From: an uncultured Paracoccaceae bacterium
GTDB taxonomy: Bacteria > Pseudomonadota > Alphaproteobacteria > Rhodobacterales > Rhodobacteraceae
Assembly: GCA_947496605.1 (NCBI GenBank)
Contig: CANMDF010000004.1
Location: 1-64,000 of the forward strand
Length of the DNA: 64,000 nucleotides
Direction of reading: 5' to 3'
Under the pieces are notes generated by a model. It ran no database searches. It was not told where the DNA came from and worked only from the letters and a program-made list of their open reading frames with translations. Both the position numbers and the translations under genes were made by a program. The first letter of the stretch is position 1; each line of letters starts with the position of its first letter. Positions 56,780-60,402 of the stretch are shown here, piece by piece.

Positions 56780-57103
56780 CTACGTCCAGCCGGCCCGCAC
56801 GTCATCGTCCCAGCCCAAGGTCCAGCGCGTCCCGTCTGTGATGACTGGACGGGCCATCAATGCGGGTTGATCGGCCAGTTGGTCCTCGGCCTCGGATTCG
56901 CGCATCCATGCGTTGAGGTTGCGGTAAGTTTGGGATTTTTTGTCGACCAAATTGTCGCCAAACTCTGCCAGTAACGGCGCCCATTCCTCGGCTGATAAAC
57001 GGTCTGCGCGCACATCGCGGAAGGTCACATCTTGGCCTGCTTCGGCCAGTGCTTTGCGGGCTTTGTTGCAGTCAGAACAGGTGGGAAGGCCGTAGAGGAT
57101 CAT
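56780..57103 (-). CDS. ArsC/Spx-family thioredoxin-fold protein (copy 2)
   Basis: 107 residues, YGLPTCSDCNKARKALAEAG with a CxxC active site and LMARPVITDG near the C-terminus, clearly related to the copy at 54885-55214. The SQTYRNLNAWMRESEAEDQ middle helix differs from copy 1, so they are diverged paralogues rather than a recent duplication. Role unknown; redox regulation or a stress reductase are the family options. Confidence 0.88.
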   Translation of the reverse strand: MILYGLPTCSDCNKARKALAEAGQDVTFRDVRADRLSAEEWAPLLAEFGDNLVDKKSQTYRNLNAWMRESEAEDQLADQPALMARPVITDGTRWTLGWDDDVRAGWT

Positions 57104-57255
57104 GGGGGCGTGTCCGTTTTGAGGGCTGATATCGGCGCAGCCTAGTGCAGGCGGGCGGTCCGCGCAACGTGCGGTGGGGGGATGCGCGGGGCTGTTGTGA
57201 AATCTGCCCGCACAAGGTTAAGGGCCAAGCAAACAGGGGGTTTGGGACGGTATGC

Positions 57256-57373: not shown

Positions 57374-57895
57374 ATGTCCAAATACCGCCGCCCCAAGCGC
57401 CCCGGCGCGTCCGTGTTCTTTACGGTGAATTTAGCCGACCGGTCGTCGAGAGTGTTGGTGCAGCAGATTGATATCTTGCGCGATGCGGTCAGGCAGACGC
57501 GGGTCGCGCGGCCATTTCGGATCGATGCGTGGGTTGTGTTGCCGGATCATATGCATTGCGTGTGGACATTGCCCGAGGGGGATGCGGATTATTCGGGCCG
57601 TATGGGTGAAATCAAAGGCCGATTTACACGCATGATCCGTAGGTCGGGGCCCGCCCTGACTCCGCCCGTGAAAAACAGACACGGTGTTGTGGGTGGCAGG
57701 ACAAGAGTCGGGGCAGGCCCCGACCTACGTGCCGAAGCGCCGATTTGGCAGAAACGGTTTTGGGAGCACCACATTCGGGATGATCGCGATTACGCGGCGC
57801 ATGTGAATTATTGTTGGATCAACCCGGTGAAACATGGGTTGGTGGCAGATGTGCGCGATTGGCCGTATTCGTCGTGGCATCGGGATAACCCGTAG
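57374..57895 (+). CDS. REP-associated tyrosine transposase (RAYT) with REPs inside its frame
   Basis: From the ATG at 57374, 173 residues. RIDAWVVLPDHMHCVWTLP contains the HUH-type metal site (His59, His61) and YCWINPVKHGLVADVRDWPYSS the conserved C-terminal block with catalytic-Tyr candidate Tyr146. RAYTs are single-copy domesticated relatives of IS200/IS605 transposases that mobilise REP palindromes. Residues 89-119, between KGRFTRMI and APIWQKRFWEH, are encoded by an inverted REP pair (57638-57660 and 57707-57729) and look like a lengthened variable loop. The stop TAG (57893-57895) lies in a third REP. The frame open upstream to 57182 is non-native. Confidence 0.92.
   Translation: MSKYRRPKRPGASVFFTVNLADRSSRVLVQQIDILRDAVRQTRVARPFRIDAWVVLPDHMHCVWTLPEGDADYSGRMGEIKGRFTRMIRRSGPALTPPVKNRHGVVGGRTRVGAGPDLRAEAPIWQKRFWEHHIRDDRDYAAHVNYCWINPVKHGLVADVRDWPYSSWHRDNP
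57638..57660 (+). repeat. REP palindrome 1 (inside RAYT coding sequence)
   Basis: CGTAGGTCGGGG followed by CCCGCCCTGAC, in plus orientation. It differs from the reverse complement of REP 2/REP 4 at two positions. It encodes residues 89-96 (RRSGPALT) of the transposase. Confidence 0.85.
57707..57729 (-). repeat. REP palindrome 2 (inside RAYT coding sequence)
   Basis: On the minus strand CGTAGGTCGGGG then CCTGCCCCGAC; identical over 23 bases to REP 4 (57948-57970). Inverted relative to REP 1, giving a 92-base BIME-like unit. Encodes residues 112-119 plus the adjoining base positions (VGAGPDLR). Confidence 0.92.
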
Positions 57896-57913
57896 GGCGG
57901 GGGCTCCCCCGCC
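57891..57913 (+). repeat. REP palindrome 3 (overlaps RAYT stop codon)
   Basis: CGTAGGGCGGGGG then CTCCCCCGCC. The same GTAGG head and G-run/C-run stem as the other copies but with a longer stem. The TAG of its GTAGG head is the transposase stop codon. Confidence 0.88.
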
Positions 57914-57947: not shown

Positions 57948-57970
57948 GTCGGGGCAGGCCCCGACCTACG
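57948..57970 (-). repeat. REP palindrome 4 (between RAYT and reverse transcriptase)
   Basis: Identical to REP 2 and inverted relative to REP 3, forming a second pair spanning 80 bases. It begins 12 bases beyond the end of the reverse-transcriptase gene and may act as its 3' hairpin. Confidence 0.93.
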
Positions 57971-57982
57971 GCTTGCTGTTGC

Positions 57983-59494
57983 TTAAAAACTCGGACTGTC
58001 TTTCCAAAAATCATCAATTTCGGCCTCTGGAATTTCAGGCTTCGCTGCTTCGACCAGCGTATGATCGACAACCGAAAAATTCGTGAGCTTTTCCTTTATT
58101 CCTGTGTCGGATATCCAGTCAAAATTCCAGACACCCGCAGCTTGTTCAGTCGCGGCCAAGCAAAGTGCCTCTGTGGTATCAAATTGTATCTTGGAAGGCA
58201 GGGCCATCCGTTGCAGCCAAATATCCAGATATCCACTATTCGGAATACGGCGGGACTTTGCCAATAAGCGTTCAAACAATTCGTTGCTCTCATCATCAGG
58301 CAAATGCTCTAGTATCAGGCTTACTGCCCTCGCCACTGCAGGCACTACGTTTGGGGAGATTGCAACGATGTCCATCAAAATGGCGACGAGTACCGTCTTG
58401 TTCTCAAACTTATAGCGTTCTTTGAAAATTTGCGCTTTGAGTTGCTTCAAGAAATTCTTCAGTAGGACTTTGAGAGATCCAGCATTAGGATGATCCAAAG
58501 CAAACTTATGTAGGATCAAGAGTTCTTTTTGTAGAGTCGTTTGAGACGTTATCAAACCCAGAGCCACGATCTTCTCAGACTTTACTGCTGACGAAACGAG
58601 GTTAGTTGACTCAGTCGTTTTGGCAGCTCCCAACCGCATACCAAATTCATGCAATTCCTCAGAGACAACCTTCAGAGCTTCATTGCATGAAGAGTCTGAT
58701 AAACCGAATATCCGGTAGTCATCTCTGTATCTAAGGATGCGTACATCCTTAAATGCAGCTAGTCTTTTGTTAATTTCACGATCACAATATCCAAGTATTA
58801 ACTCTGCCAAAACATGACTTAGAATTGACGCCTGAGGCAATCCGTTAGTCTGACCTTCTCTTGAACAGCGGATTAGTTTGTCTAGACGATTGCCTATTAA
58901 GTTCGGATCATTGCGGTTGTTTCCGTTCTTGATAAAACCCTTGTCGTGGAAAGCCCAAGCAATCGCGTGAGTATAAATCGATGGATAGCAGTTAGACACA
59001 TCGGAGATTGCAACGTGAGAGTATTCGAATGAAAGTTCAAGAGACCGTTGTTCGATCTTGTGCCACCACTGCAAAATCTGCTCTGCGACGTCCGACATCG
59101 GCCCGTTTGACACCACAGGGAGCGAGCAACACTCAACCACTCCACCTGAGAAAAGCGCTAGTCTTTGCTGGATCAGACTCCAATTACTCTCATGAGTGAT
59201 TAGTTGGACCGCCTTGGCATAAATGAGCGGATTGATTAATTCGAAGGGCCGCCATGCGAACTTGCCATCTTTGTTGCTGAGGAATTGGTAATTCACTCCA
59301 GATTCATTCTGCGGTTTCCACGCGTGAATAGCAGAGTGATCTATCTTTTCTGCAACTTCAAAGGCTGCTCCTAGGATAGGCTCAAAGTTGAACCACTCCG
59401 GAAGAGTTAGGTCAAAGTAGGAACTCGATTTCAACATGTGATCTTTGGCCTCAGTCGCACTAAGGTCAAAAAAAGAAACCGAATTAGTTGTCAT
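57983..59494 (-). CDS. Reverse transcriptase, UG/Abi (defence-associated) type
   Basis: 503 residues. RT motifs in order: motif A SDVSNCYPSIY (Asp165), motif B TNGLPQASILSHVLAE (216-231; GLPQA where GxPQG is usual) and motif C RYRDDYRIFG (Asp258, Asp259). A thumb-like segment follows, then a ~200-residue helical C-terminus without motifs. There is no intron maturase or retron X/VTG pattern, which points to the unknown-group/Abi RTs, many of which are anti-phage (DRT) proteins; I cannot assign the subtype. GC is lower than in neighbours (sampled lines 40% and 47% versus 60% in thyX), indicating transfer. The ATG is two bases after the thyX stop, so it is probably translated from the thyX transcript. 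Confidence 0.88.
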   Translation of the reverse strand: MTTNSVSFFDLSATEAKDHMLKSSSYFDLTLPEWFNFEPILGAAFEVAEKIDHSAIHAWKPQNESGVNYQFLSNKDGKFAWRPFELINPLIYAKAVQLITHESNWSLIQQRLALFSGGVVECCSLPVVSNGPMSDVAEQILQWWHKIEQRSLELSFEYSHVAISDVSNCYPSIYTHAIAWAFHDKGFIKNGNNRNDPNLIGNRLDKLIRCSREGQTNGLPQASILSHVLAELILGYCDREINKRLAAFKDVRILRYRDDYRIFGLSDSSCNEALKVVSEELHEFGMRLGAAKTTESTNLVSSAVKSEKIVALGLITSQTTLQKELLILHKFALDHPNAGSLKVLLKNFLKQLKAQIFKERYKFENKTVLVAILMDIVAISPNVVPAVARAVSLILEHLPDDESNELFERLLAKSRRIPNSGYLDIWLQRMALPSKIQFDTTEALCLAATEQAAGVWNFDWISDTGIKEKLTNFSVVDHTLVEAAKPEIPEAEIDDFWKDSPSF

Positions 59495-59496
59495 AC

Positions 59497-60402
59497 CTAC
59501 CCAATAATCCCTTCAAACTCCCGCCATTCGCCTTTGGACATCCCAGAGGTCTCTTGCGTGACCTCTTCACCTTTAAGCATACGTCGCACACAGTCAATCG
59601 CCTTAGACGAGAGCGTGGCACCGCCCATGCGGTAATCCTCAAAAGCGCCGTAGGCGGCGGGTACCCAGTCGGCGACGACTTTGCAGATCTCGTCAGCGTA
59701 GACCCGGATTTCGTATTGCGCGTGGCTGTCCGCCCGCAGTCGCAGGAAGTGGAAGAGGTTGTGCAGGTCTACTTTCCAGTACCATTGCGTATAGATGTTG
59801 GCAGGCAGGTTCATGCGGGCCAGTTCGCGGGCGAGGCCTTGTTGCCCGTCATCCGAGATCATTTCCGCGTAGTGGTCGTAGCAGCGTGCGGCGTCGCCTT
59901 TGAGGTATTCCAGCACGCGGGCGGCTTCTTCGCCGGTCAGTGCTTCGCCCCTGCCCTGATTGTTGATCACCGATTGGGCGGCGAGTTTATCGGGTTCGGG
60001 GATGTAGAATTCGCGGTCGAGGATTGAATAGCGCGCGGAGTATTCGTTCACATTCGCCGTCCGGTGCCGGATCCATTGCCGCGCCACAAAGACGGGCAGT
60101 TTGACGTGGAGTTTGATCTCGCACATCTCAAACGGGGTCGAGTGCCAGTGGCGCATCAGGTAGCGGATCAGCCCTTCGTCGTTTTGCACCGACTTGGTGC
60201 CTTTGCCGTAGGACACCCGTGCGGCCTGACAGATCGCGGCGTCGTCGCCCATATAGTCGATGACCCGGATGAACCCGTGGTCGAGCACGTCGTAGGCTTT
60301 GTAGAGATGCCCTTCCATCCCTTCGGCCACCGCCCGCAGCGTGGGCTTGGGGTTGCTGCGCAGGTCGTCGATTTCGGACTGTTGCTCTGGGGTGATGGGC
60401 AT
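59497..60402 (-). CDS. thyX: FAD-dependent thymidylate synthase
   Basis: 301 residues. The ThyX motif is complete: [14 protein letters not shown] (112-125). ThyX makes dTMP from dUMP using FAD, NADPH and methylene-tetrahydrofolate, replacing ThyA. Other conserved pieces are [12 protein letters not shown] and [15 protein letters not shown]. The GC-rich composition fits the host chromosome. Its stop is two bases from the reverse-transcriptase start, making it the likely promoter-proximal gene of that pair. Confidence 0.97.

Follow-up and report, generated by a model that had tools for sequence, protein, structure and literature searches.

Repetitive extragenic palindromes (REPs) and the REP-associated tyrosine transposases (RAYTs, or TnpAREP) pose a problem that is, to our knowledge, unsolved, namely by what means REPs multiply and a RAYT remains matched to its REPs. 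In the window analysed here, which is the whole stretch of 64,000 nucleotides (nt) at positions 1 to 64,000 of contig CANMDF010000004.1 from an uncultured Paracoccaceae bacterium (Rhodobacterales), the problem takes a particular form: an inverted pair of REPs lies within the reading frame of the RAYT gene itself (57374..57895, + strand). How did such a pair enter the gene, and what keeps it there? The same loop of the protein and almost always the same frame hold a pair in many genera, the two arms are kept as REP DNA and the spacer between them as protein, and the presence, absence and type of the REPs vary at one locus. The unit is probably an intragenic REPIN (a REP doublet, usually of about 90 nt, with two inverted REPs and their GTAG heads outward) that is tolerated in a loop predicted to be disordered and undergoes renewal through REP turnover or recombination, in a RAYT often adjoining a gene that we take to be thyX-like. 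Since the REPs are inside a gene at one chromosomal site in many species, their gain, loss and type switching can be traced against fixed neighbours. The locus offers a natural test of how REPs spread, with pairs gained, lost and swapped at the same site, and in a single insert its coding frame allows DNA-level selection on the arms to be told apart from protein-level selection on the spacer.

REP1 (57639..57660, + strand, GTAGGTCGGGGCCCGCCCTGAC) has a GTAG head and a palindrome with one stem mismatch, and is read in the codons CGT AGG TCG GGG CCC GCC CTG AC. REP2 (57707..57728, − strand, GTAGGTCGGGGCCTGCCCCGAC) is a perfect palindrome, read as GTC GGG GCA GGC CCC GAC CTA C.. and separated from REP1 by a coding spacer (57661..57706, + strand) with the peptide NRHGVVGGR. 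The earlier note, made from the sequence of the window, had claimed that both REPs lie inside the RAYT frame; they stand within one base of where it had put them, and the frame is open across both. The 25-nt arms are 92% complementary, and the pair has the layout of a REPIN, that is, two inverted REPs, outward GTAG heads and a short spacer. Folded as single-stranded DNA, the unit (57630-57737) reaches −35.1 kcal/mol against −18.6 ± 2.7 for its shuffles (z = −6.1; 0/200 as good). Further copies of the REP are present in the genome: the pattern GTAGGTCGGGGCNNGCCCCGAC has 29 strand-places at ≤3 mismatches, 7 of them exact, with some palindromes counted on both strands and the internal and downstream copies included, whereas the reversed control pattern has none. 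Arm matches of 23-25 nt alone recur. The spacer has no second copy in the genome of the window, so the whole unit is not dispersed there and nothing shows that the internal copy seeded others; the suggestion of a mobile unit carrying its own substrate is less well supported than that of a self-insertion.

The protein has 173 amino acids from the ATG at 57374 (237 if the in-frame ATG at 57182 is used). It matches the NCBIfam profile NF047646 REP_Tyr_transpos with 177.8 bits (cut-off 80), a Pfam search of it gave no match, and its best structural match is 4ER8, the TnpAREP of Escherichia coli (3.9e-44 by sequence; 5.2e-18 and TM 0.77 for its model in Foldseek). In the numbering of the window's protein without Met (P0001), H58, H60, Y145 and N149 are invariant in an alignment of 55 RAYTs. 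H58/H60 form the HuH motif, and Y145 is the putative catalytic tyrosine, judging by its position against 4ER8. The motifs read DHMH, WQ and YCWINP. The insert comprises residues 88-118 of P0001 (31 residues). In an AlphaFold2 model built on 55 sequences, with a mean predicted local distance difference test (pLDDT) score of 82, it sits between helix 72-89 and strand 129-132, that is, in the alpha-C/beta-4 loop, which has about 5 residues in 4ER8. The scores of residues 91-96 and 100-120 are below 50, and the insert-bearing loop is predicted to be disordered.

The recurrence of the pair across Rhodobacterales was no part of the earlier note. In a comparison set of 81 RAYTs (the best 80 of 511 relatives plus the window), the alpha-C/beta-4 loop is long in 49 and short, without REPs, in 32, so that the 31 residues are indeed an insertion relative to genes without internal REPs. 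Both arms are present in 47/49 long-loop genes, the exceptions being L084 (arms decayed) and L076 (arm 1 degenerate), and at least 6 of the 7 stem pairs are formed in each arm in 46 of these 47, with 5 in arm 2 of L109. The frame of arm 1 is the same in 47/47 and that of arm 2 in 45/47; L072 and L074 translate arm 2, still an intact REP, in a different frame. Unit length ranges from 60 to 141 nt across the 47 paired loci. Other genera share the loop, but with REP codons in it, and the REP is found elsewhere in the window's genome, so that neither of the two outcomes named in the earlier note as refuting it was observed.

A strict detector (GT[AG]G head and perfect 7-bp stem), which misses bulged REPs because it demands a perfect stem, found an internal REP in 42/49 long-loop and 0/32 short-loop genes. 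Over the 81 loci (900,854 bp) it gave 261 matches, and a single block-shuffled copy gave 14. A REP lies ≤300 bp upstream in 4/49 long-loop and 14/32 short-loop genes, being rarer in the former (p = 3e-4), and ≤300 bp downstream in 36/49 and 23/32, respectively. Whether the internal pair substitutes for an upstream REP could not be separated from REP family, as long- and short-loop genes use different families.

A wider sample was drawn from an even set of 398 genomes of the phylum of the window (Pseudomonadota), 221 of which have a RAYT match. Eighty loci were taken among the matches listed and 73 were parsed, those parsed badly being L128, L152, L178, L180, L188 and L194. By the same strict detector, to which bulged REPs are invisible, an internal REP is present in 5/14 parsed loci of the window's family and in 0/59 outside it; among the five positive loci, L129 is a near copy of L130, which is gene L059 of the first set. 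The distance from HuH to W is ≤49 residues in the well-parsed loci outside the family, against 51-80 in the five.

The arms of the insert are constrained at the DNA level and its middle at the protein level, with fourfold sites almost frozen in the former and divergent in the latter. In detail, 75/1765 comparisons at fourfold sites of the REP stems differ (4.2%), against 5561/10617 (52.4%) in the gene core (22 class A genes, L059, L061 and L072 excluded). The arm-2 Leu is CTA in 20/22 genes, while G is the last base in 83/88 codons from core columns of invariant Leu. The spacer motif N-x-[YHF]-G-[AV]-x-[GA]-G-R is alignable in 25/28 class A and D loci examined; its fourfold sites differ in 786/1213 comparisons (65%), with residues alike. 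The stems remain paired although both of their sides change and the REP type shifts between species: 321/329 stem cells of arm 1 are Watson-Crick (mean 274.5 and maximum 288 in 2000 shuffles), and 322/329 of arm 2 (shuffled mean 270.5). Within a gene the two arms resemble each other more closely (mean difference of 1.43 nt, and none in 19/47 genes) than arm 1 of one gene resembles arm 2 of another (3.36 nt). Template switching between inverted arms is an established process, and would give the same homogenisation.

Related Rhodobacterales gain, lose and swap REP pairs at the same site. In the window, the RAYT is preceded by an ArsC-family gene (56780..57103, − strand; PF03960, 2e-10) and followed by the thyX-like gene (59497..60402, − strand), both syntenic with relatives; the latter is closest to that of Yoonia maricola (98.7%). 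The thyX-like gene lies downstream of the RAYT in 39/80 relatives, with the ArsC-family gene upstream in 34 of these 39. As many loci are short, the count is 36 among the 59 with ≥4 kb downstream and 5 kb upstream. The loop is long in 30 of the 39 and short in 9. On the thyX tree (39 relatives and the window), the long and short states require 6 changes, at least 5 of them forced by supported branches, against 8.3 on average with shuffled labels; the direction of the changes cannot be told from this tree. A second tree of relatives gives 11 changes, at least 3 on supported branches. For instance, two Tabrizicola loci (L073 and L074) differ by 3.7% in thyX and 14.5% in the RAYT core, and L074 alone has the internal pair. 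Likewise, L070 and L047 have nearly identical gene ends and first downstream REPs, their divergence is centred on the loop, and only L047 has the pair.

The class of the internal REPs also varies between homologues, i.e., GTAGGTCGGGG (A), GTAGGGCGGG (B, B2), GTAGGGTGGG (C), GTAGGTCGGGC (D) and GTAGGCCGGG (E), as assigned from the arms, a CCCACC word beside the arm in L041, L043, L050, L052 and L057 being discounted. Extragenic copies were counted as exact matches of five stem patterns, with internal copies subtracted, in 46 long-loop genomes (L072, L085 and the genome of the window left out). Extragenic class A occurs in 22/23 genomes with internal class A versus 5/23 others (p = 2e-7), and 3 of these 5 carry the near class D. 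L058 and L060, with class B arms, have no exact class A copy, unlike the class A relatives of their clade. For class D, the association has p = 0.024 at a three-copy threshold. Class A is also present in 10/30 short-loop genomes, two of which hold a long-loop gene as well, and the GTAGGGTGCGC family, typical of short-loop genes, in 24/46 long-loop genomes. The first 11 nt are common to a downstream REP (≤300 bp) and an internal arm in 23 of the 35 long-loop genes counted as having such a downstream REP.

REPs inside tnpAREP genes have already been published. In Quentin 2018 (PMC6006769), in-frame REPs are described as a unique feature of subclass 2.4 (RAYT group 4), in a different loop and with a remark on subclass 2.8; the insertions generally separate the HuH motif from the Tyr motif and occupy what is described as a peripheral extension, and the motifs of the subclass are NH[IFV]H and YIxNNP. 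The window RAYT resembles this subclass in having REPs in frame within the gene, and differs in the insert being at alpha-C/beta-4, in the E. coli-like protein, in the Rhodobacterales hosts and in the motifs DHMH and YCWINP. By sequence and fold its closest solved structure is the E. coli TnpAREP (4ER8; subclass 2.2, RAYT group 2), with HuH and Tyr conserved. Unlike the window, E. coli has the short loop mentioned above and REPs with a bulged stem (PMC8266576), and the markers given for subclass 2.2 are DHLH, WE, YIHYNP and an alpha-C/beta-4 insertion, against DHMH, WQ and YCWINP in the window.

The unit is comparable to REPINs or bacterial interspersed mosaic elements (PMC3116915) in its two inverted REPs, outward GTAG heads and length of about 90 nt, and unlike them it lies inside a gene, codes for protein and is not dispersed in its genome. 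Intragenic REPs of recB, uvrA and other genes (PMC3733652) are similarly GTAG REPs read through within open reading frames (ORFs); here, the host gene is the presumed transposase of the REP itself and the content varies among relatives at one locus. In the open-licence literature no account of a REP pair in the alpha-C/beta-4 loop of a RAYT was recognised, the supplementary tables of PMC6006769 and PMC3733652 being places that could hold Rhodobacterales examples, and single examples may be in print. What is new is therefore the alpha-C/beta-4 site in an E. coli-like protein of Rhodobacterales, which indicates that REPs inside the gene also occur beyond subclass 2.4. The earlier note held that RAYTs normally lie beside, not around, their REPs, to which that subclass is a published exception (PMC6006769).

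How, then, might the pair have arisen and persisted? Either the RAYT would have inserted a REP pair by its single-strand mechanism, or recombination with a RAYT already carrying one would have brought it in. It would be tolerated because the loop is predicted to be disordered and the frame stays open, which makes self-insertion tolerated in a surface loop the best supported of the three readings of the earlier note. The internal copy may have stayed REP-like because the processes that renew extragenic REPs, presumably RAYT cleavage and strand transfer, gene conversion and template switching between inverted arms, also rewrite the internal copy, and the spacer peptide may have come under protein-level selection. 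As for the route of entry, the Defluviimonas loci discussed next favour recombination, and arms that have changed around a kept spacer (L059 and L067) favour local rewriting.

Several results weigh against the intragenic, renewed REPIN. On the thyX tree, 13/500 label shuffles reach as few changes, and RAYT and thyX distances are only moderately correlated (Mantel r = 0.36; 0/2000 permutations as high), so that some gene replacement is likely. There is no clean empty site and no closely related pair differing by the REP unit alone among the relatives, as L070/L047 and L073/L074 also differ in flanking codons. The internal REP type is not the commonest in the genome of the window, a TTCT-loop variant having 6 copies there and the extragenic CCTG type 3. 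A motif pattern served to anchor the alignment of the spacer, so that part of its residue conservation is built in, though its synonymous divergence is not; the stem-shuffle controls ignore kinship and are inflated by shared ancestry, as is the class A association. For classes B, C, D and E the internal/extragenic association is not significant at one copy (p = 0.83, 0.15, 0.075 and 0.35, respectively), and exact copies of the internal class are missing outside the gene in the genomes of L060 and L047. In the Defluviimonas loci L045 and L047, the internal pair is of class A, the downstream REPs are of the GTAGGGTGCGC type and other class A copies number 1 and 0; since class A is nearly absent from the rest of the genome, recombination fits these loci better than local transposition.

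The alternative that deserves most attention, although we still hold it rather doubtful, is that homologous recombination of the loop region accounts for most movement of the pair between RAYT alleles, with no transposition into the gene driven by the RAYT. The divergence of L047 and L070 around the loop, the lack of another exact class A copy in the L047 genome and the spacers of class A and D genes, which look homologous across genera, point in this direction. Exchange of the entire loop leaves L059 unexplained, which has B/A arms around an A-like spacer, and L067 (B2/E arms and an A-like spacer, judged by eye) and the additional full or partial arm-2 copies in some loops (L046; P0047 and P0048) also tell against it. 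It is unlikely, too, that the pair is a selected autoregulatory element, in which an mRNA or single-stranded gene hairpin would lower RAYT synthesis, or would be bound or cleaved by the RAYT and so give feedback. Such a role would suit the long hairpin and the arms that retain pairing while their sequence changes, and the cited part of PMC3733652 suggests that REP hairpins can down-regulate RAYT expression. On the other hand, the 9/39 thyX-linked relatives with a short loop speak against the pair being required, L084 and L076 have lost or degenerate arms, P0029, P0042 and P0061 (among 121 proteins) retain the spacer peptide without the arm-2 peptide, and the unit varies more than twofold in length. 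A regulatory job is possible, weakened by the frequent absence of the pair, and is not needed to explain the pattern.

It is very improbable that the loop is conserved for its peptide, for instance for contact with REP DNA, with the palindromes incidental. The spacer motif is conserved as protein, and PMC6006769 locates the short insertions that subclasses 2.2 and 2.6 have at alpha-C/beta-4 close to the region of REP recognition. For the arms, the idea is contradicted by fourfold sites almost frozen there and not in spacer or core, by the CTA codon of the arm-2 Leu set against core Leu codons ending in G, and by the other frame of arm 2 in L072 and L074; for the spacer, it stands. Somewhat less improbable, yet far from likely, is a self-encoded specificity, in which the arms encode part of a loop adjacent to the transposase surface that reads REPs, and an arm swap rewrites substrate and reader in one step; if true, this would explain RAYT and REP types changing together. 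Chance palindromes in coding sequence, which GC-rich genomes favour, can practically be dismissed, given the control with 0 against 29 matches, the shuffled copy with 14 against 261, and the recurrence of the pair in other genera.

Some further observations concern the loop. L132 and L124 have single class C REPs at other points of it, which may mean that the loop accepts REPs more than once. The arm-2 peptide has additional in-frame copies, full or partial, in L046, P0047, P0048, P0081 and P0082, as if the internal array can expand. In L048 (6001-6726), the 3′ end of the RAYT recurs in part beyond the stop codon, and REPs lie between the two. The downstream REP pair of L073 and L074 is at the same place, about 475-570 bases after the start of the RAYT match (L073); its GTAGG and CCCTACGG ends are kept around palindrome cores of different type, and the REP type was apparently replaced in place.

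The other RAYT match in the genome of the window (2 matches in the genome, among the matches listed) is a paralogue without the HuH and Tyr motifs, so the gene at 57374-57895 is, as far as motifs can tell, the only plausible active one found. The paralogue (L115, 509-1042, + strand, contig C2) has an open frame, NRLH in place of HuH and no Tyr motif. Similar paralogues are L117, L128 and L131, with NKLH or NRMH, the last two loci being near copies. Genes of this type are perhaps domesticated dead copies.

Downstream of the window RAYT, a REP of another stem class (57892..57913, + strand, GTAGGGCGGGGGCTCCCCCGCC), whose TAG is the RAYT stop codon, forms an extragenic pair with a REP identical to REP2 (57948..57969, − strand); the strict detector found no REP ≤600 bp upstream. 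Between these REPs and thyX, the window encodes an AbiP2-like reverse transcriptase (57983-59494, − strand; PADLOC, 5e-161). An ORF of >150 amino acids on the thyX strand occupies the same interval in 29/39 thyX-linked relatives (L035-L103), with REPs between the RAYT and the ORF in 19/29 and between the ORF and thyX in 0/29. Of ten ORFs selected among the 29, 7 match PADLOC models (PDC-S15, PDC-S19, PDC-S32, PDC-S23 twice, HEC-07 and Aga_SIR2), with weak matches of about 1e-5 for two, and Pfam families were matched by 7 (FRG, DUF3800 twice, Fic twice, DUF3644 and AbiJ_NTD4). The interval between RAYT and thyX looks like a single-gene defence hotspot adjoining the RAYT.
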